A stretch of DNA of 64,000 nucleotides. Source: Levilactobacillus fuyuanensis (GTDB taxonomy: Bacteria > Bacillota > Bacilli > Lactobacillales > Lactobacillaceae). Shown one piece after another: positions 6,107-37,474 of the stretch (its first letter is position 1; each line of letters starts with the position of its first letter). A model generated the notes under the pieces. That model ran no database searches. It was given only the letters and a program-made list of their open reading frames with translations, and was not told the DNA's origin. The DNA lies in NCBI RefSeq assembly GCF_003946395.1, contig NZ_RHNZ01000003.1, positions 62,001 to 126,000 of the forward strand, read 5' to 3'. A program made the position numbers and the translations under genes.

Positions 6107-6634
6107 ATGAGTTTAATTTTCATCAAACGGGCCAAACTACGTGACTTACCAGCCATCATGGCAATTATCGATCACGCTAAGGCCCAATTAAAGGCCGCTG
6201 GGAGTCCGCAATGGCAGGATGGCTATCCGGATGCTGCGGCACTGAAGAAGGACGTAGACGGCCAACAATGCTGGTTACTGGTGGTTGATGGTCAGGTGGC
6301 TGGGACGGCAACTATGATTATTGGCGACGAGCCCAGTTACGTCGACATCGAAGACGGTCAGTGGCAGAATAACCAAGACCCTTACGCAACTATCCACCGA
6401 ATCGCCATTGGCGCTGGCTTTGGCGGACAGCACCTGAGCCACTACTTTTTCTCCAATCTGATCAGCGAGGCCTACCACGAAGGCGTCCGCAATTTCCGCA
6501 TGGATACTCACGCGCAGAATCAGCAAATGCAGGCGATTGCCAGAAGCTTTGGCTATAAGCATCGTGGTACCATCTACGTGACGGAACAGACCAGCGATGC
6601 CTCTCGGTTGGCGTTTGAATTGAACTTAGACTAA
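6107..6634 (+). CDS. GNAT-family acetyltransferase (paralogue 1)
   Basis: 175 residues. The GNAT fold is suggested by the N-terminal beta-strand/helix (IFIKRAKLRDLPAIMAIIDHAK), the central strand YATIHRIAI and the acetyl-CoA loop region GFGGQHLSHYFFSNLI, a variant of the usual Q/RxxGxG/A. It closely matches the protein at 7913-8440 over its whole length (conserved SPQWQDGYPD, NNxDPYATIHRIA, GVRNFRxDTH). Such enzymes acetylate small amines or protein N-termini, and the substrate is unknown. GAGGAGG precedes the ATG. It is monocistronic, with a terminator after it. Confidence 0.88.
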   Translation: MSLIFIKRAKLRDLPAIMAIIDHAKAQLKAAGSPQWQDGYPDAAALKKDVDGQQCWLLVVDGQVAGTATMIIGDEPSYVDIEDGQWQNNQDPYATIHRIAIGAGFGGQHLSHYFFSNLISEAYHEGVRNFRMDTHAQNQQMQAIARSFGYKHRGTIYVTEQTSDASRLAFELNLD

Positions 6635-6660
6635 ACGTTGATTATTAACCATATACAAAG

Positions 6661-6710
6661 AAATCGCAGGACATTGTCAGCCAACCAGCTAACCATATTC
6701 TGCGATTTTT
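6661..6710. terminator. Intrinsic terminator between convergent genes
   Basis: AAATCGCAG pairs with CTGCGATTTTT across a ~30-base loop. It is usable from both strands, for the GNAT gene and the dehydrogenase. Confidence 0.6.
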
Positions 6711-6748
6711 CATATTCATTTTTAAATTAATGATTTACTGAAAAAACC

Positions 6749-7777
6749 TCAATCCGCCTTCGAAATCGGCACCCGAATGGCATTGCTGGTCGTTCCGGTC
6801 GTGAAGAAGTCGTGAAAATTGTCATAGCTAATACGAATCATATCGACGAGGGCTGGTTCCGTGTACGACCCGACGTGCGGCGTGACTAGCACTTGGGGGT
6901 ACGCCGCCAGTAACTGGCGGGCCTCTGGATTGGGCACCTCATCCAGACTGGCAAATTGCTTGCCCAACAGTGCCACCTCATCACGAAAGACATCGGTGCC
7001 GTAGCCGCTGAGTTGACCGCTGTCTAAGGCACTCAGAATAGCCGGCACATCTGCCAACTCGCCTCGTGCAGTATTGACGAGAACGGCGCCAGACTTCATT
7101 TGTGCGAGAAATTCTGCATCAAGCAGATTGTCATTTTCACCGGGGAAGTATGGCACATGAACTGAAACAATATCGCTTTGCGCGAGTAATTCCGGAAGCG
7201 ATACCACCGTCACGGCTGCCTGCACTGCCGCAGACGGCCGCGGATCATACGCCAATACTTGGGCGCCCAGTCCCTGATATAACTTCGCCTCGGCTAGGCC
7301 AATCCGCCCAGCGCCGAGAATCCCGACTGTGGCGGTGTGAATCTCTCGGCTAAAGAGATTGTCACTGATTGTAAAGTTGGCTTGGCGGGTCTGTTCCGCG
7401 GCCAGATTAACGTGGCGAAACTGCGTCATTCCTAGCGTCAATGCTAATTCAGCGACAGCCGCTGGCGAATAGCCGGGTACCCGGGCCAGCGTGATGCCGA
7501 GGTCGGCTGCGGCCTGCAAATCCAGGTGATTATAGCCAACCGAACGGGTGAAGACTGCTCGAATCCCCCAGTCGGCGAACTGTTGGAGGTTCTGTCGATC
7601 AACCACGCAATTGCCTCGAACCAGGACAGCGTCAGCCCCCTTGGCAGCGGCCACATTGTCGTGAGTCAAGAGTTCCCGGACGTAGTTACAGGTAAACTGG
7701 TACTGATTCAGGCGGTCAAAGTACGGCTCTTCCAGGGCACGGACGCCGTAAGCAGTAATTTTCACCAATTCGAACAC
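6749..7777 (-). CDS. D-isomer-specific 2-hydroxyacid dehydrogenase
   Basis: 342 residues in the longest frame. NAD-binding GAGRIG is at about 155-160, with catalytic Arg238 (NTARGE), Glu267 (DVFRDE) and His301 (TPHVGSYTE) in the spacing of D-lactate and D-hydroxyisocaproate dehydrogenases. It should reduce a 2-oxoacid (pyruvate or branched-chain oxoacid) to the D-hydroxyacid with NADH. The longest frame opens with GTG at 7777, but AAGGAG overlaps that position. A TTG at 7768 or GTG at 7765 (reading KITAYGV, the usual family start) fits the ribosome-binding site better. It lies between the two GNAT paralogues. Confidence 0.9.
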   Translation of the reverse strand: MFELVKITAYGVRALEEPYFDRLNQYQFTCNYVRELLTHDNVAAAKGADAVLVRGNCVVDRQNLQQFADWGIRAVFTRSVGYNHLDLQAAADLGITLARVPGYSPAAVAELALTLGMTQFRHVNLAAEQTRQANFTISDNLFSREIHTATVGILGAGRIGLAEAKLYQGLGAQVLAYDPRPSAAVQAAVTVVSLPELLAQSDIVSVHVPYFPGENDNLLDAEFLAQMKSGAVLVNTARGELADVPAILSALDSGQLSGYGTDVFRDEVALLGKQFASLDEVPNPEARQLLAAYPQVLVTPHVGSYTEPALVDMIRISYDNFHDFFTTGTTSNAIRVPISKAD

Positions 7778-7912
7778 ACTCCTTCTCCCTAAACTCTAGC
7801 AAAATTCAGCGGGAAAGTCGCCCGAACTGATGAAAAAATTAAATATTTCGTTCGACCACAGAAAGTGGTATTCTTGTCTTTAAATTTAAAGTGAACAATT
7901 GGAGGACGACTG

Positions 7913-8440
7913 ATGAGTTTAGTTTATTTACGACACGCCACCAAGACGGACGTGCCAGCCATTATGGCAATTATTGACGATGCAAAAGCGCTGTTGAAAG
8001 CAGATGGCAGTCCGCAGTGGCAAGATGGCTATCCCGATGAGACGGCCATTCGCGAAGACATTATGGCGCAACGCAGTTGGGTCTTGATGGTCGATGACCG
8101 AATCGCCGGAACCGCGGCACAAGTGGTGGGCGACGATCCAAATTACCACGAAATCAGTGGCGACGGCTGGCAAAATAACACGGACCCTTACGCCACGATT
8201 CATCGGATCGCGCTAAGCAAGGACTTCGCTGGCCAACACCTTAGCCACACCTTTTTCTCCAATTTAATCAGCCAAGCCTATCAGAACGGCGTCCGCAATT
8301 TTCGAATCGATACGCACCGCATGAACCAACGGATGCAGGCCATCGTAACCAGCTTGGGTTACCAGTTTCGTGGTATCGTCCACGTGGCTGAACCCGGGGA
8401 TAATGCCCGCCGAGCATATGAATTGAATTTGCCACGGTAA
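7913..8440 (+). CDS. GNAT-family acetyltransferase (paralogue 2)
   Basis: 175 residues, the same length as the protein at 6107-6634 and recognisably its duplicate. It shares MSLxxxxxAxxxDxPAIMAIID, SPQWQDGYPDE, YATIHRIAL, the GQHLSHTFFSNLISQAY acetyl-CoA region and the C-terminal ELNL. A TTGGAGG precedes the ATG at good spacing. The substrate is unknown. The pair flanks the D-hydroxyacid dehydrogenase, so either the duplication happened around it or the dehydrogenase inserted between tandem copies. No terminator is clear directly after it. Confidence 0.88.
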   Translation: MSLVYLRHATKTDVPAIMAIIDDAKALLKADGSPQWQDGYPDETAIREDIMAQRSWVLMVDDRIAGTAAQVVGDDPNYHEISGDGWQNNTDPYATIHRIALSKDFAGQHLSHTFFSNLISQAYQNGVRNFRIDTHRMNQRMQAIVTSLGYQFRGIVHVAEPGDNARRAYELNLPR

Positions 8441-8598
8441 AGCGGTAACATAATCAGTTAGCGGACGACACCCGAAAAGTGGGGTCAAAATTCGCTAAAG
8501 TCCTGCATCATTATGGCTGTAAATTAATTAAGTGATGATGTATAATAGGCTCTATTGTTTGAGTCCACGTTTCAACAGAAAGGGGATTTTCTTTTAAA

Positions 8599-9258
8599 AT
8601 GTATCGATTCTTCGTCCAACCGCAGATCAACGCGGTTACGCAAAAATTAGCGGGTTATGAATTGTTATTACGCTCATATTGCCATGACTACTGGGTAACG
8701 CCAACTGATTTCACTGCGCTACCAATGGACCAGCAGGTTTCACTGTCCTATCAAGAGATCACGAACATTTTAAAGGATCATCAAGATAACCCCGAAATTT
8801 CACTCAACTTAAACCGCGAACAATTCACGGATCGGCGGACCATTGGCCACCTGATTCACCTGAAGAAGTCCGTTCAAAATTTAAATTTAATCGTCGAGCT
8901 GACGGAAGCCCCTTCGTTGGAGGAACTTCACCGCTATGTCGCTATCTACCAGGCTTACGATATCAAGCTGAGCCTAGATGATGTTGGCACGGACAACCCG
9001 TGGTGTGAAGCCATTCAGGATGTCTTACCTTTTATGGACAGCATTAAATTTGCGATGCAGAACTACCGGTTCCAACATCGGCAAAAAGAGATGATGACCA
9101 GCCTCAACTTCTGGCGTAATGTTGCCGATACATATCATCTCAAGTTCACCCTCGAAGGTATTGAGGACAAGGGCGACGTCGACTTGGCCAAGCGTTACAA
9201 TGTTGGCATGACTCAGGGGTATTACTACAGTAAACCGGTGCCTTATGCGGCTGGGTAA
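8599..9258 (+). CDS. EAL-domain protein (cyclic-di-GMP phosphodiesterase or degenerate relative)
   Basis: 219 residues consisting of little more than one EAL domain. The EAL signature appears as GYELLLR (residues 19-25). Metal-site residues appear as SLNLN, VELTE, LDDVGTDN (the DDFGTG loop) and LEGIE, and the C-terminal QGYYYSKPV is intact. The usual KxD motif reads SIKFAM, so the Lys is kept but the Asp is lost. No GGDEF cyclase, PAS or membrane sensor domain is attached. It may hydrolyse c-di-GMP, or bind a partner if inactive. A TATAAT-like -10 is at 8541-8546, and a strong terminator follows. Confidence 0.85.
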   Translation: MYRFFVQPQINAVTQKLAGYELLLRSYCHDYWVTPTDFTALPMDQQVSLSYQEITNILKDHQDNPEISLNLNREQFTDRRTIGHLIHLKKSVQNLNLIVELTEAPSLEELHRYVAIYQAYDIKLSLDDVGTDNPWCEAIQDVLPFMDSIKFAMQNYRFQHRQKEMMTSLNFWRNVADTYHLKFTLEGIEDKGDVDLAKRYNVGMTQGYYYSKPVPYAAG

Positions 9259-9285
9259 AGCGTTTTAAAATTACATGACTAAAAC

Positions 9286-9337
9286 AAGAGTCACCGTTCA
9301 ACCTACCCCCTGGTAGATTGAATGGTGATTCTTTTTT
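9286..9337 (+). terminator. Terminator after the EAL gene
   Basis: A stem AAGAGTCACCGTTCAA... with ...TTGAATGGTGATTCTT and then Ts, with the nested CTACC/GGTAG extension. Confidence 0.8.
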
Positions 9338-9497
9338 AGCTACTATCATTCAGTTTAAAGAGACCGTCTCATTCGCTTTTCTAAAGTGTGAGAACAATGA
9401 TAAATATTTTTATATTTTAGTTTTTTTTGACGAGTTCTTTCTATAAATGGCCGTCAATCCTTGCTACAAAGCCTTTTAATTTTCTAAAGTCTTCCTG

Positions 9498-9526
9498 TTG
9501 ACATCTCCCCAACCAACGACTATTAT
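9498..9526 (+). promoter_or_regulatory. Promoter of the T-box/oppA unit
   Basis: TTGACA (9498-9503) and TATTAT (9521-9526) have 17-bp spacing. The predicted start falls at about 9533, the 5' end of the T-box leader. Confidence 0.8.
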
Positions 9527-9532
9527 TAGAGC

Positions 9533-9813
9533 CAAGTTAGAAATACATGAACGCATCACCAGGAAGAGTAGTTGTTCCCGCTAAGTCTAGAGACCACCGG
9601 TAGCTGAAAAGGTGGCTTACAACGGAACCGCGAAGATGAGCCTGGTAGCTAACAATTGGTGAAAGCTGATTGTTCGATTTGAAGCCCGTTACCGCTTCCG
9701 ACTTTTGGCAACAGAAGTTACGGAGATGGTGGGTGTGAGCCCCCCATGAAACAAGGTGGTACCGCGAGTGAAATCGTCCTTATGTAAATTACATAAGGAC
9801 GATTTTATTTTTT
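9533..9813 (+). promoter_or_regulatory. T-box riboswitch controlling the oppA-type gene
   Basis: The T-box core AAGGTGGTACCGCG is at 9753-9766, followed by a terminator (9770-9813) whose 5' arm would compete with the antiterminator. Stem I is visible: GTTAG pairs with CTAAC, CACCAGG with CCTGGTag, and GTTCC with GGAAC. It has the AGTA of the specifier-loop 5' side (9580s), the AGAGA bulge, and GAA on the 3' side. The triplet after GAA is GAT (9635-9637, Asp), followed by purine G. ATG (Met) one base later is the out-of-register alternative. Uncharged tRNA would switch the transporter gene on, giving amino-acid-starvation control of peptide uptake. Confidence 0.92.
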
Positions 9814-9829
9814 TAGGAGATGTTTTGGG

Positions 9830-11473
9830 ATGAAGAAAAAAGGAACGATTTTAACCATTGCCGCACTGAGCCTCTTAACGTTAGCAGGTTGTGGGAGTCA
9901 AACCAGCAGTAGTAACAGCAGTCACAAGTACGCCGCCAAACAGGAATTGAACTGGACCGAATCTTCAGAGTTAGCCAGTTCCGATCTCGCACAGGCCACA
10001 GATACGCTGAGCTTTACCGTCCTGCAGAACACACAGGAAGGTCTCTACCGCCTCAACAGCAAGGGCACACCAGCCAACGCCCTCGCCACCAGCACCAAGG
10101 TCACCAACGGCGGCAAGACTTACACCTTCAATCTTCGTAAAGATGCCAAGTGGTCCAACGGCGATCCCGTAACGGCCAAAGACTTCGTTTACTCCTGGCA
10201 ACGGACGCTGAATCCGAAGACGGCTTCACAAGACGCCTTCTACCTCTACCAAGTCAAGAACGCCGAGGCCGTCAACAAGGGTAAGAAGTCTCTGAGCGCC
10301 CTGGGCATCAAGGCCGATGGCAAATACAAGCTGACCGTGCAACTCACCAAACCCGTTTCCTATTTCAAGAAACTCCTCGCTTGGCCCCTCTTCTACCCGG
10401 TTAACCAAAACGCCGTCAACAAATACGGTAAGAAGTATGGGACTAGTTCCGCCACGACAGTCTACAACGGACCCTTCCGTCTGACCAAGTGGAACGGGAC
10501 TGGCAAGACCTGGACGCTGGCCAAGAACAAGACCTACTGGGATAAGAAGGCTGTTCACCTGACCAAGATCAACGAGCAGGTCACCGAATCCACCACGACC
10601 AGCTACAACCTCTACAACGCCAAGAAGACCGACGAGACGCTGCTGAGTGGCCAACAAATCAAGAACAACAAGAACAGCAAGGACTTCGTTAAGCGCCTCC
10701 CAACCGGTTCCGAACGACTCGATCTGAACCAAAAGAAGGTCGCCGCCTTCAAGAACGCCAACGTCCGCAAAGCCTTCTCCTTAGCCATCGACCGTAGCCA
10801 ACTGGTCAACGATGTCTTGCAAGACGGCTCAGTTGCCTCTAAGGGCTTTGTTCCTGGTGGCATGGGCAACAACCCTAAGACGGGCGAGGCCTTCAACAAG
10901 GAAGCCTACGTCAAGTCCGGCGTTTCCTACGACCTCAAACAAGCCAAGAGCTTACTGGCCAAGGGCCTGAAGCAGACCGGTGATAAGCAACTCAACGTCA
11001 CCCTCTCCGTTTCCGATACCGACACCAACAAGCAGACCGCAGAATTCCTGCAAAGCTCCTTGGAGAAGTTGCCAAACGTTAAGGTGACCATCAAGACGGT
11101 ACCTTACGTGCAACTGATTACCCAGCAAAACAACGGTAACTACGAGTTAACGTTAGCCGGCTGGCAATCCGTCTTCGCCGACCCAATCAACTTCCTGGAT
11201 GTCTTCGAAGCCGACTCCAGCTACAACACGACCGGCTGGAAGAACACACAGTTTGACAAGCTCCTCGACGAAGCTGAAAACCAAGACGGCAACAAACCAA
11301 CCACTCGGTGGAACAAGCTGGTCAAGGCCGAAAAGATCTTAATCAACGACCAAGGCACGATTCCACTGTACCAGGCTGCAAAGTCACAACTGTTACGGAG
11401 CAACGTCAAGAGCATCGTTTACAACGGCGCCGGGGTCCCTTACGACTTCAAGACGACTTACATTGCCAAGTAA
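9830..11473 (+). CDS. OppA-type oligopeptide ABC transporter substrate-binding lipoprotein
   Basis: 547 residues. It has a lipoprotein signal peptide with lipobox LAGC (Cys21), a Ser/Asn-rich tether, and then the family-5 solute-binding fold (LxxxxxTxxVTNGGKTYTFNLRKDAKWSNGDPVTAKDFVYSWQRTL is the hallmark block). It captures peptides outside the membrane for an Opp permease, but no permease or ATPase genes lie nearby, so it must share a system encoded elsewhere. A T-box leader in front ties expression to one amino acid. It is paralogous to the protein at 46700-48343, which also has a T-box. The ATG follows TAGGAGA. Confidence 0.95.
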   Translation: MKKKGTILTIAALSLLTLAGCGSQTSSSNSSHKYAAKQELNWTESSELASSDLAQATDTLSFTVLQNTQEGLYRLNSKGTPANALATSTKVTNGGKTYTFNLRKDAKWSNGDPVTAKDFVYSWQRTLNPKTASQDAFYLYQVKNAEAVNKGKKSLSALGIKADGKYKLTVQLTKPVSYFKKLLAWPLFYPVNQNAVNKYGKKYGTSSATTVYNGPFRLTKWNGTGKTWTLAKNKTYWDKKAVHLTKINEQVTESTTTSYNLYNAKKTDETLLSGQQIKNNKNSKDFVKRLPTGSERLDLNQKKVAAFKNANVRKAFSLAIDRSQLVNDVLQDGSVASKGFVPGGMGNNPKTGEAFNKEAYVKSGVSYDLKQAKSLLAKGLKQTGDKQLNVTLSVSDTDTNKQTAEFLQSSLEKLPNVKVTIKTVPYVQLITQQNNGNYELTLAGWQSVFADPINFLDVFEADSSYNTTGWKNTQFDKLLDEAENQDGNKPTTRWNKLVKAEKILINDQGTIPLYQAAKSQLLRSNVKSIVYNGAGVPYDFKTTYIAK

Positions 11474-33581: not shown

Positions 33582-33767
33582 CTTTGATGCAAAATAGTTT
33601 GCTGCTTTACTTTCAGGATGTCAGCAAATGCTTATGCAGCAAAATAATCATCCCACGAACTTAACACTGGACATTACCAATTAGTAAGCGTTATTTCAAC
33701 CCATTAAACGAATTGGGTGGTAAGCTAACCGTAAACAAGCAGATATAAAAGGATAGGAGTGATTTGA

Positions 33768-35606
33768 ATGTCGCATATAACTCGAAAATTATTACTCGCT
33801 GGCCTTTCCCTGGTTCTCTTCGGTGGCACAATTAGTCCGGTACTAGTTCAGGCAGATAGCGCCGAAACACCTAGCGTAACAGCTAACAGTAGTCGGACAG
33901 AACCCATTAAGATTAGTTCTGAACAAATGCCGTATATCAACTACGTAAATGGTAAAGAAGTACAACAACACTACTTGTTCTCCGGCTTACACGATTCTTA
34001 CACGTCCGATGAGATTCTTGGTAAAGATAATGGCGCTGCCTGGGGGACAAATTTCCTTGCATCTATTGCCCCCTCTATAGGAGGGGCCGACTCAGCAAAA
34101 ATGGCCGAGAGCTTCATTAAAAATATGGTCAGTGATGGTGGTACCTTCGTTGGCAAATCACTGGAAGAACCCTTAAGCGAATTCATTTTCGGTTCTACTT
34201 CTACCTCTGTTCTCGATGCGTCAAAAGCACAGTTATATTACGAGCTCTGGTTCATTAAAGAAGGCGCTGCGTATCAATTAGATAAAAATTCATTTAACCT
34301 CGAAGAAGCAAAAGAAGATTACGTACAAAATGTGTCACCTAAGATTATATCTGACTTCGGTATCGATGTATTTAAAGACACGTTTGACAGCCGAGCCAAC
34401 TTTGAAAAATTTGTAATTCCCACAGCGGAATCCTTCTGCCAAATACTTTACATAAACTATAATGATCCAGACTTTGTCAAAGAGTTCTCTCAACTAAATC
34501 CAGAAGCAACCGCCAACAATTCCTATAAGTTGTGGACAACCACGTATCTAAAAGACTACCTAACACCACAACTTGACGCTAACGGCAACGTTCTATCCTA
34601 TTCTGCAGATGGTCTGCTAGTTGCTAGTCAGGTGATAGCTAATGGACCTGGCGACCTCATCTTTGGAAATGAAAGCCCTTCAACACCAGCACCTTCTTCT
34701 CCAGCACCTACCAGCCAGCCCGTCACCGTCCACTACGTCGATGACCAAGGTAACGCGCTGAAACCTGATAAATCCTTAACGGGTTCCCTAGGTGGCACTT
34801 ACAAGGCTGAACCACTCACCATCACTGGCTATACACTTGCCAAGACGGCCGGAACGGAATCGGGAACGTTCGGTGACACCGCACAAACCGTCACCTACAC
34901 TTATACAAAGAACGCCGTCAAAGCAACCGTTCTGTCCGCAACCAAGAAGATTGGCCTCTACAGTTCTCCTGACTTTAGCAGTAAGACACTCAAGCAGTGG
35001 TACGCCAAAAAGTCCCGGCTGAACCGGCCCATGTTTGAAGTGATCGGCACCGCTACTTCCAAGACCGGTGTCAAACGCTACCAGGTCAAAGACGTTAATT
35101 CTGAAAGTGACACCTTCGGACAAACTGGCTACATCACGGCCAATACTGATTACATGACCTCTGCCTACGACACACCGACCGACAAACAGATTACGGTAAT
35201 TGGTCCCGAGGGCGTTAATGCTTATAGCCAGAAAGATCTCACGCATCAAAAGGCCCACTACCAGCAGGGCCAAGTCCTGACGATTAAAAAAGTTGTGACT
35301 CAAAATATGACGACTCGTTTCTTACTTACTAATGGCACTTACATCACCGCCAACAAGCAGCTTGTCACCACTGGTAAGCAGACGATGCCCAAACGCGTTC
35401 AAGCCAAAACAGCGTTGAACCGTTATGGTACAGCTAACCTGACCAAGCGCAATCATCACTATACCAAGAAAGCTCACGCCACCTTTAAGGTTACAGGTTG
35501 GGCCTACTCAAATGCCAATGACTTTAGTAAGGGCGATACCTTACGTTACAAGGTTGCCGGCGGGTACATTACGGCAAATAAACATCTCGTTCGCGCGATC
35601 GACTAG
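33768..35606 (+). CDS. Secreted MucBP-domain surface protein with novel N-terminal domain
   Basis: 612 residues. A signal peptide ends VQA (29); residues ~40-300 form a domain I do not recognise (ISSEQMPYINYVNGKEVQQHYLFSGLHDSYTS..., one Cys at 224). A Pro/Ser/Thr linker at 301-317 is followed by a MucBP repeat at 318-381 (VTVHYVDDQGNALKPDKSLTGSLGGTYKAEPLTITGYTLAKT) and then Lys/Tyr/Thr-rich repeats to the end, each with GYITAN or TYITAN (DUF5776-like wall-associated tail). There is no LPXTG. The N-terminal coding half is visibly more AT-rich than the C-terminal half, which suggests a mosaic gene. Confidence 0.85.
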   Translation: MSHITRKLLLAGLSLVLFGGTISPVLVQADSAETPSVTANSSRTEPIKISSEQMPYINYVNGKEVQQHYLFSGLHDSYTSDEILGKDNGAAWGTNFLASIAPSIGGADSAKMAESFIKNMVSDGGTFVGKSLEEPLSEFIFGSTSTSVLDASKAQLYYELWFIKEGAAYQLDKNSFNLEEAKEDYVQNVSPKIISDFGIDVFKDTFDSRANFEKFVIPTAESFCQILYINYNDPDFVKEFSQLNPEATANNSYKLWTTTYLKDYLTPQLDANGNVLSYSADGLLVASQVIANGPGDLIFGNESPSTPAPSSPAPTSQPVTVHYVDDQGNALKPDKSLTGSLGGTYKAEPLTITGYTLAKTAGTESGTFGDTAQTVTYTYTKNAVKATVLSATKKIGLYSSPDFSSKTLKQWYAKKSRLNRPMFEVIGTATSKTGVKRYQVKDVNSESDTFGQTGYITANTDYMTSAYDTPTDKQITVIGPEGVNAYSQKDLTHQKAHYQQGQVLTIKKVVTQNMTTRFLLTNGTYITANKQLVTTGKQTMPKRVQAKTALNRYGTANLTKRNHHYTKKAHATFKVTGWAYSNANDFSKGDTLRYKVAGGYITANKHLVRAID

Positions 35607-35616
35607 CGACCAATTC

Positions 35617-35656
35617 AAAAGTCACCTTATCCGAGACAATGGATAAGGTGACTTTT
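35617..35656 (+). terminator. Terminator after the MucBP protein
   Basis: AAAAGTCACCTTATCC and GGATAAGGTGACTTTT form a perfect 16-bp stem. Confidence 0.85.
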
Positions 35657-35846
35657 GACGTTATTTTAGCCGAAATCGACTGTTTCAAAATTCGCTAGTT
35701 CTCTGTCGCCAGCTTTTCCGGCTCCCCAATTAGCAAGTGGCCCAGGTCACCAGTAAACCCAGGGCCACGTTGCAATCGAACCACCTAAAAAGCAGTTAAA
35801 CATGAACCGGTCTCAATTATTAATTTCACATATAGAAATGACTTGT
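35657..35846. other. Intergenic stretch with a GC hairpin
   Basis: The only structure is GTGGCCC (35737-35743) with GGGCCAC (35762-35768). No gene is visible. Confidence 0.35.
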
Positions 35847-35890: not shown

Positions 35891-37138
35891 TTACTTCGTC
35901 ACATAGCTCTTCAAAATCCAAGCTGTATGACCGCTATGATCCCTCACCTGATAGTACGTCTTCATTTTCCCTTTGATTTTGACCTTCTCAGACTTTAGCA
36001 GCCGCCACTTCTTGTGTGAATGCTTTGCCGTATAACCATGCGCATGTTTGAGATGAGCATCTTTAAACCACTTTTTGTGAGCTTTTAAATGGTAAACATA
36101 CTTGGTATGTAGCTTTTTGGTTTTGACGATTTTAACCTTAGTTGCTTTTTTCTTAGGCTTAACACCTTTATCCGCCGCCCCATTTTCTACCGGCTGTGGT
36201 TCTGGTGTTGGTTTAGGATCAGGTGTGGGCTGGCTAGGGACAACCGGCGTTGGATTTGGTCGACTAGGCACATATGGTGCTGGATATGGCGTTTCTTTAC
36301 CATCAGTTGAGACTAAGTACTTAGCCCGTAACCGCGCCTGAGTTGCTGGTGAAATTTCCAAACTCGTGGTGATGTAGTTCTGCAAAGAACCGTAATTTTT
36401 CTCAACATCATAATAATACTTGGATATCCAGTCAATCTTCACGGTTCGACCCGTGTATTGCGACAACATGAAGTCATTCACAATGGTCTGCTTATCCATA
36501 CCTAAAATGGTCATAATGAGTACGGTGGCAATTCCAGTACGATCTTTCCCGGAAGAACAGTGATAAAGCGTCGCCCCATTAGTAGTTGCTAGCATTTTTA
36601 AGAACTGCCGATAACCGGTAACTGCTGGGTAGCCAAAATCCAATCGCTGATTATAGAAATCACCATCCCCGCCACCATCGCTGAATGCGTGCGGACCCAA
36701 AATGGAAATGTAAGTTTCACTTGCGCCAGGAATATTTTTATCTGGCTTATCTGCCACCTGCCCCGGCGTTCGAAAATCTACAATTGATTTTACGCGATAC
36801 TTATCAGTTAAGGTCTTAATATCGTCCGTATCTAGCGTACTAAGATTATCGGATCGTAATAACTGATAGGGTTTAATCTGCCACTTCCCATCGGCCGTCT
36901 GGTAGCCACCCAAGTCCCTGGTGTTTTGGGTATTGTGCATCGCGACCAAGGTCTTCTTCAAATCCTCTTGCTTAGAACCATCAACCAATAGACTTGTTTT
37001 GGTAGCCTTAGCAACTGTTTGCTTCGCCGTCGACGCTACTGCTGCAGTAGTCGCTGCTGAGGCAGTTGGCCCGCTTACGCCTGCCAATGCTAGCAAAACA
37101 CCAAATAGTCCCAATGACTTAATCAATTTATGCTTCAA
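35891..37138 (-). CDS. Secreted tyrosine/dual-specificity phosphatase with wall-binding tail
   Basis: 415 residues from TTG 37138 (KHKLIKSLG), chosen because GGGAGGG is six bases upstream; the ATGs farther up have none. A signal peptide ends near TASA (28). The phosphatase domain (about 60-280) has NTRDLGGYQT, the WPD-like loop region and the P-loop HCSSGKDRTG with Cys194 and Arg200, like the secreted LipA-type phosphatases. Then come a Pro-rich linker (PSRPNPTPVVPSQPTPDPKP) and a Lys/His-rich C-terminal SH3-like domain. Extracellular dephosphorylation of phosphopeptides or phosphoinositides is possible, but the substrate is unknown. Confidence 0.9.
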   Translation of the reverse strand: MKHKLIKSLGLFGVLLALAGVSGPTASAATTAAVASTAKQTVAKATKTSLLVDGSKQEDLKKTLVAMHNTQNTRDLGGYQTADGKWQIKPYQLLRSDNLSTLDTDDIKTLTDKYRVKSIVDFRTPGQVADKPDKNIPGASETYISILGPHAFSDGGGDGDFYNQRLDFGYPAVTGYRQFLKMLATTNGATLYHCSSGKDRTGIATVLIMTILGMDKQTIVNDFMLSQYTGRTVKIDWISKYYYDVEKNYGSLQNYITTSLEISPATQARLRAKYLVSTDGKETPYPAPYVPSRPNPTPVVPSQPTPDPKPTPEPQPVENGAADKGVKPKKKATKVKIVKTKKLHTKYVYHLKAHKKWFKDAHLKHAHGYTAKHSHKKWRLLKSEKVKIKGKMKTYYQVRDHSGHTAWILKSYVTK

Positions 37139-37474
37139 ATTGTTTCCCTCCCACTCTCTCATTTCCAAACATCATTTACAGGGATTAGGATATCAGGCGC
37201 ACATATTATTTATGCAAAGTTAATGTATATTCTTTGTAAAGCAACATTCTTATAATGACTTTATCGTCTAATTATTATCGCAATCAGACTACGCAATACC
37301 TACTTCCCGCCGAGGCACGTCACCTAGCCTACCAACGCAACTTTACTGCCCCAACAGACATGGATTCCCATGAAGTAAGCGTTCTTTTCATTTATTTTCA
37401 AAATAATCCTTACGAAATGAAAATATCTATGGTACGCTAGCATCTCGTGGGAAATTCAAACGAGGAGCAACACA
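37139..37474. other. Divergent promoter region, nothing further recognised
   Basis: AT-rich region between the divergent phosphatase and DUF2798 genes. A 61-codon frame at 37255-37440 has no ribosome-binding site. Promoters for both flanking genes must lie here, but I cannot pick confident hexamers. Confidence 0.4.

Follow-up and report, generated by a model that had tools for sequence, protein, structure and literature searches.

Proteins comparable to the one described here fall into three groups: MucBP surface proteins of lactobacilli (PF06458), proteins with C-terminal DUF5776 tails, and the SlpA/S-layer cassette of C. difficile. SH3 domains, to which DUF5776 is related, bind envelope polymers; according to PMC12208459, binding by DUF5776 itself is still to be formally established, and PMC11299179 likewise describes DUF5776 as SH3-like. 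In Enterococcus AtlE, the endolysin PlyYouna2 and the Apilactobacillus Giant proteins, C-terminal DUF5776 units stand behind another part, which the available portions of these sources give as a muramidase, an amidase, or a beta-solenoid with repeats (PMC12208459, PMC10468668, PMC12863079). PMC7677006 describes homologous recombination as a source of diversity in C. difficile surface features, and PMC10100898 describes SlpA as a phage receptor.

The gene analyzed here lies in a 64,000-nucleotide stretch of a Levilactobacillus fuyuanensis contig (the whole stretch is referred to as “the window”). As in MucBP surface proteins, its product carries MucBP behind a non-repeat N-terminal domain, and distant relatives in two other genera have LPxTG-like ends and between one and seven MucBP units. 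Unlike them, the window protein has a single MucBP and an N-terminal domain absent from Pfam, and the sortase signal LPxT[GAS] was found in the last 60 residues of 0/61 Levilactobacillus members of at least 500 aa, the window protein included. With DUF5776-tailed proteins it shares C-terminal DUF5776 units behind another part, but that part is a globular domain of ~250 residues without known relatives. As in the C. difficile cassette, a surface-protein segment appears to be varied by homologous recombination; the family differs in that it is not an S-layer as far as known, in that a single domain is exchanged, and in that exchange was found at two loci of the family but not at the window's own locus.

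Gene architecture and spread of the family

The gene is an intact reading frame of 612 aa on the forward strand (33768-35606; ATG at 33768, TAG stop at 35604-35606). A ribosome-binding-like AGGAG precedes the ATG by 8 bases (33755-33759, forward strand) and a terminator-like perfect 17-bp inverted repeat lies just past the stop (35616-35657; arms 35616-35632 and 35641-35657), signals from which we infer that the gene is probably transcribed alone. The protein opens with a predicted signal peptide (residues 1-29, 33768-33854), whose start is conserved in the family alignment and whose cleavage was placed by eye after VQA. There follow an AT-rich N-terminal domain without a Pfam, NCBIfam or PDB-sequence family, for which an AlphaFold2 model was made (residues 30-303, 33855-34676), a Pro/Ser/Thr-rich linker to residue 316 (34647-34715), one MucBP (PF06458, residues 318-380, 34719-34907; 71 bits, Pfam cut-off 23) and a DUF5776-type, SH3-like tail (residues 385-612, 34920-35603; PF19087, 96.9 bits, cut-off 27, best stretch 471-533), all on the forward strand. 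Two or three DUF5776 stretches are counted in the tail, depending on the E-value limit. The initial annotation had placed an unrecognized domain on a common wall-binding chassis; the chassis, putatively wall-binding, is borne out by two domains above their Pfam cut-offs. Judged from its sequence, the window gene probably encodes a wall-attached surface protein of a large Levilactobacillus family.

A TetR-type regulator and an FtsX-type permease are encoded upstream, and a secreted tyrosine phosphatase downstream on the reverse strand (35891-37168; PF13350, 155 bits; SH3 match below cut-off). The slot adjoining the window gene is variable, the phosphatase being replaced by other genes in L. parabrevis (L219), whose products we take to be a transporter of the MFS kind and a secreted protein resembling NlpC/P60. 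Neighbors of family members were clustered (ORFs of at least 80 aa, two per side, within 2.5 kb; 254 ORFs) and the 16 largest clusters inspected, with their labels unchecked. The largest (30 of the 254 ORFs) is the N-domain family itself; small neighbors do recur (one of 116 aa next to 5 members, one of 112 aa next to 4) but seem confined to single loci, and no covarying adjacent immunity gene was apparent among these 16 clusters.

The N-terminal domain is what defines this family of paralogs, which spans the genus. It matches six places in the window's genome, all of them intact ORFs (603-615 aa) with MucBP and DUF5776 above Pfam cut-offs. A profile built from 25 N-terminal domains (A1) matched 31/35 Levilactobacillus genomes at E ≤ 0.001 and 29/35 at E < 1e-15, the source genome included, with 0-6 copies per genome. 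In a scan of named genomes, full-length relatives among the best 80 of 182 matches were all within Levilactobacillus; within these 80, the nearest species-named relative was L. parabrevis ATCC 53295 (79% identity over residues 31-612), and an uncultured Lactobacillus MAG held a partial relative (88% over residues 185-612). Sixty genomic stretches yielded 72 ORFs or ORF pieces at E < 1e-15 in 28 genomes (one match, in G008 at 9.3e-24, lay outside the fetched stretches), and 12/60 stretches carried two or three family ORFs together. In a pattern test, five of the 61 ORFs of at least 500 aa lacked MucBP and had a linker rich in Pro; Pfam agreed for L126, the one tested. Shortened members of 349, 444, 391, 482 and 351 aa (L172, L177, L198, L208 and L214) and two interrupted ones (L169 and L194; one split, one with a stop) were located away from stretch ends.

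Across 397 genomes of the taxonomic family, the domain was detected in 21 genomes of the genus and in 5 genomes of two other genera; among 395 genomes of the order, no further genera with the domain were found. Weak matches in four genomes of a third genus (g6) were dismissed as chance: the two proteins inspected resemble coiled coils, presumably of the DivIVA kind. In the four distant relatives scanned, of the five from the two other genera (L246, L256, L257 and L258), the domain precedes one, three or seven MucBP units, and all four have LPxTG-like C termini with a hydrophobic stretch. Profile comparison of the genus with these relatives gave probabilities of 99.0% and 95.8% over 252 and 241 columns, against 0.4% and 0.2% for reversed-profile controls. 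By this measure the same N-terminal domain also sits on other tails, which the initial annotation had suggested searching for. Phage records contained no match to the domain; 41 plasmid records matched the window protein, and the 25 matches listed all did so only from residue 317 on. No description of the family was found in the titles and abstract starts of the papers listed in literature searches, from which subscription journals were mostly absent.

Fold and base composition of the N-terminal domain

Residues 31-304 of the window protein gave no Pfam match (E ≤ 1), no NCBIfam match and no match to a PDB sequence model, in agreement with the initial annotation, which recognized no family there. 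Other members of a 49-sequence set (A3) gave weak Pfam or NCBIfam matches only (best E 8e-4), none common to more than 2/49. Pfam, NCBIfam and PADLOC matches of one or two members were rejected as chance, as was the slight similarity of the family profile to PrsA (E = 0.044). Confident AlphaFold2 models were obtained from 49 sequences each for the window domain (pLDDT 84.9, pTM 0.83) and for a member from L. huananensis (L118; pLDDT 92.9, pTM 0.86) that is 20% identical to it. Both models place strands first and then a mostly helical core, in a similar helix/strand order (the models were not superposed); in the window domain, beta-hairpins lead into the helical core, and the predicted folded core spans residues ~48-293, a size of ~250 residues. 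Foldseek returned no match at E ≤ 0.001 in the PDB for either full-domain model, and none at that threshold among viral structures for the window-domain model. The best VIA-align Z scores of the two models were 4.6 and 6.1; the similarity lies chiefly in the helical core, an arrangement that the tool calls common. Matches at Z 4.5-6.1 (FliS, designed bundles, colicin D immunity protein) are weak, and no family was concluded or excluded from them. On these results the domain is without an assigned family and its fold is possibly, not provenly, new. Conserved positions are mostly structural (e.g., Pro55, Tyr56, Trp161, Tyr185 and Gly282); at position 259, 94% of members have Pro but the window protein has Thr. 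Asp270 is the sole position at which D, E, H, K, R, C, S, T, N or Q reaches 80% across 54 members. The alignment thus suggests no obvious catalytic set, in a group so divergent that an enzyme would stay compatible with it.

The part of the window gene up to MucBP has a GC content of 0.426-0.430 and a GC3 of 0.381-0.387, compared with 0.495-0.498 and 0.575-0.579 from MucBP on (paired values are for two placings of the border), so that the N-terminal part is more AT-rich, as had been noticed before. Among 52 window ORFs of at least 150 aa, chosen greedily, GC3 averaged 0.614 (SD 0.060; minimum 0.451, the phosphatase ORF at 35891-37168); the window gene is counted in this set as a whole (GC3 0.477). 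The GC3 of its N-terminal half (0.38-0.39) is lower than that of all 52 ORFs, and that of the tail is ordinary. Composition in relatives, which the initial annotation had named as a refuting test, shows that the bias is shared. In a set of 42 distinct members of at least 500 aa with a recognizable MucBP start, which includes some close orthologues and is not a set of independent observations, the N-terminal part was poorer than the rest in GC in 41/42 and in GC3 in 42/42, and the window gene ranked 15th by GC difference and 24th by GC3 difference. After amino acid standardization the GC3 gap was +0.183 in the window gene and positive in 51/51 members (51 of 61 kept; ten failed the MucBP pattern). 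The AT bias is a property of the whole family and provides no evidence for recent capture of the domain by the window gene.

Amino acid change and domain exchange

N-terminal domains diverge far more than the tails they sit on: mean identity among 54 members from 25 genomes (54 of 61 kept, seven failing the tail pattern) was ~24% for the N-terminal domains and ~68-70% for the first 150 tail residues. When the window gene is compared with its orthologue in L. parabrevis, the N-terminal domain is 65-67% identical (dN 0.202, dS 0.34, ratio 0.59), compared with a dN of 0.050, a dS of 0.59 and a ratio of 0.09 in the tail. The partial MAG copy showed the same trend (dN/dS of 0.56 in residues 201-260 and 0.03-0.20 from residue 281 on), and N-domain dN/dS in 13 other pairs was 0.10-0.40. 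Along 60-codon windows of the L. parabrevis comparison, dN/dS was always <1 (maximum 0.85, residues 161-220), for which reason diversifying selection on the domain is not proven. Fourfold sites differed at 13/65 positions in the N-terminal domain and 47/153 in the tail (P = 0.14); neither these sites nor dS showed domain exchange relative to L. parabrevis at the window's own locus, a pattern indicative of rapid protein change with no replacement of the domain.

Loci in other species differ in this respect. To compare syntenic copies, 38 pairs were drawn from a set of 60, with identity taken over aligned flank parts of at least 400 nt. Both flanks were at least 85% identical in 17/38 pairs; N-terminal domains were 80-100% identical in 11 of these, and in four, at two loci, they were 50-55% identical with tails at 94-96%. 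At the locus shared by genomes G014, G029 and G016, nucleotide identity is 89-98% across 1.8 kb upstream. Between G014/G029 and G016 it is 100% over nt 1-100 of the ORF, declines to 72-90% over the stretch up to nt 300, lies at 30-66% within nt 300-750 and is 90-100% from nt 900 to the ORF end. Fourfold differences were concentrated in the domain for G014 against G016 (27/57 in the N-terminal domain, 21/173 in the tail; P = 9.6e-8), and not for G014 against G029 (17/101 and 23/177; P = 0.38). In the second case (G020 against G012), flanks are 90-91% identical, the N-terminal domain 52% (aa) and the tail 95%; the drop starts at nt ~100, just past the signal peptide, ends at nt ~850-900, at the linker, and contains two short bins of 74-80% (fourfold differences 40/55 and 45/168; P = 2.3e-9). 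G012 and G015 have less similar flanks (86-87%), yet their N-terminal domains are 92% identical and form the less divergent part (16/108 in the N-terminal domain, 60/170 in the tail; P = 1.8e-4). At one syntenic locus, dS was tenfold in excess in the N-terminal domain (1.59, compared with 0.16). A synonymous excess confined to the domain means recombination, not selection on amino acids. By sequence comparison, most or all of the N-terminal domain is replaced by recombination between conserved flanks at these two loci, and at both the DNA adjoining the domain was not exchanged along with it. The mosaic origin put forward in the initial annotation is thus upheld for the family and not for the window gene itself.

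Whole genes also vary between equivalent sites. The last two of the 17 pairs with similar flanks, G029/G016 and G025/G030, carry wholly different family members (N-terminal domains 26% and 29% identical, tails 64% and 68%). At L205 and its equivalents, the family member occupying a single chromosomal slot differs from species to species, and a slot marker gene, a membrane protein by eye, is among the two upstream ORFs of 14 members in 13 genomes. In G028 (L190), a neighboring pair (6218-7807 and 8384-9970) has tails 93% and N-terminal domains 26% identical, which may reflect local tail homogenization or replacement of the tip. Homogenization of tails within genomes as a general rule was rejected: among 45 members of multicopy genomes, the nearest tail was from the same genome in 4/45 and the nearest N-terminal domain in 0/45, and with shuffled labels (mean ~1.8 same-genome neighbors, maximum 8-10) neither count stands out.

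Candidate roles of the N-terminal domain

We consider it fairly probable that the N-terminal domain is a recognition or adhesion tip on a wall-binding stalk, diversified across the family by recombination. The tail, made up of two or three units of the DUF5776/SH3-like type, would hold the protein on the wall with no covalent anchor, the single MucBP would act as stalk or spacer, and the N-terminal domain would be outermost, as an exposed tip. This tip would bind a ligand, serving recognition or adhesion rather than catalysis, a preference founded on its fast change, its exchange and the lack of a conserved polar set. At some loci, the window's included, the domain would diversify by fast amino acid change; at others, homologous recombination would replace it, with the signal-peptide end and the conserved tail serving as flanks. 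Phages, competing strains, or plant or host surfaces may supply the pressure.

That the window gene recently acquired its AT-rich domain from a foreign source, as proposed initially, would account for an N-terminal GC3 below the window's ORF minimum beside an ordinary tail, but is very improbable: it is largely refuted by the family-wide composition and by the L. parabrevis orthologue, which carries the same domain with a dS not above that of the tail. Greater, though still low, likelihood attaches to a secreted enzyme with a divergent active site, acting for example on wall or plant polymers. DUF5776 tails are also found on an amidase and a muramidase, as given in the accessible text of two reports (PMC10468668, PMC12208459); against this, searches assigned the domain to no enzyme family and gave no significant match to a fold, a single polar column reaches 80% in the 54 members, and exchange with fast change would be expected more of recognition surfaces.

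Another candidate is a polymorphic toxin against other bacteria, or an effector resembling a bacteriocin, borne by a wall-binding carrier and paired with immunity specific to kin. It might explain why a variable domain is exchanged on a conserved carrier, and the helical bundle of the core weakly resembles colicin D immunity protein (Z of 5.7 and RMSD of 3.3 over 72 residues), below the level that the tool regards as meaningful. This too is improbable, given that the variable part is N-terminal, that no immunity-like neighbor appeared among the 16 largest clusters (ORFs of at least 80 aa), and that the DNA beside the exchanged domain did not move with it. Weak constraint alone, by which the family would consist of dispensable, drifting surface proteins with no particular recognition role, is about as unlikely as an enzyme. 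Copy number (0-6), the several interrupted members and an N-domain dN/dS of up to 0.59 are in line with drift; the lower ratios of the 13 other pairs, the common helix/strand order of two models (not superposed) at 20% identity and a tenfold dS excess in the domain at one syntenic locus, which is beyond drift, are not.

A recognition or adhesion tip remains our preferred reading. More tentatively, the tip may be built on a new fold and the chromosomal loci may act as fixed slots, with homologous recombination between species exchanging the tip or the entire gene, driven by shifting pressure, for instance from phages or the recognition of competitors. The window gene also corrects a tempting inference, as its AT-rich part reflects a family-wide property and not recent capture. 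Levilactobacillus species commonly occur in food fermentations, and the family presents an unknown domain with a known style of evolution. Exchange of a domain whose flanks stay conserved is a sign of a recognition surface exposed to shifting selection, and the family would therefore offer natural variants for phage adsorption, adhesion and strain recognition.
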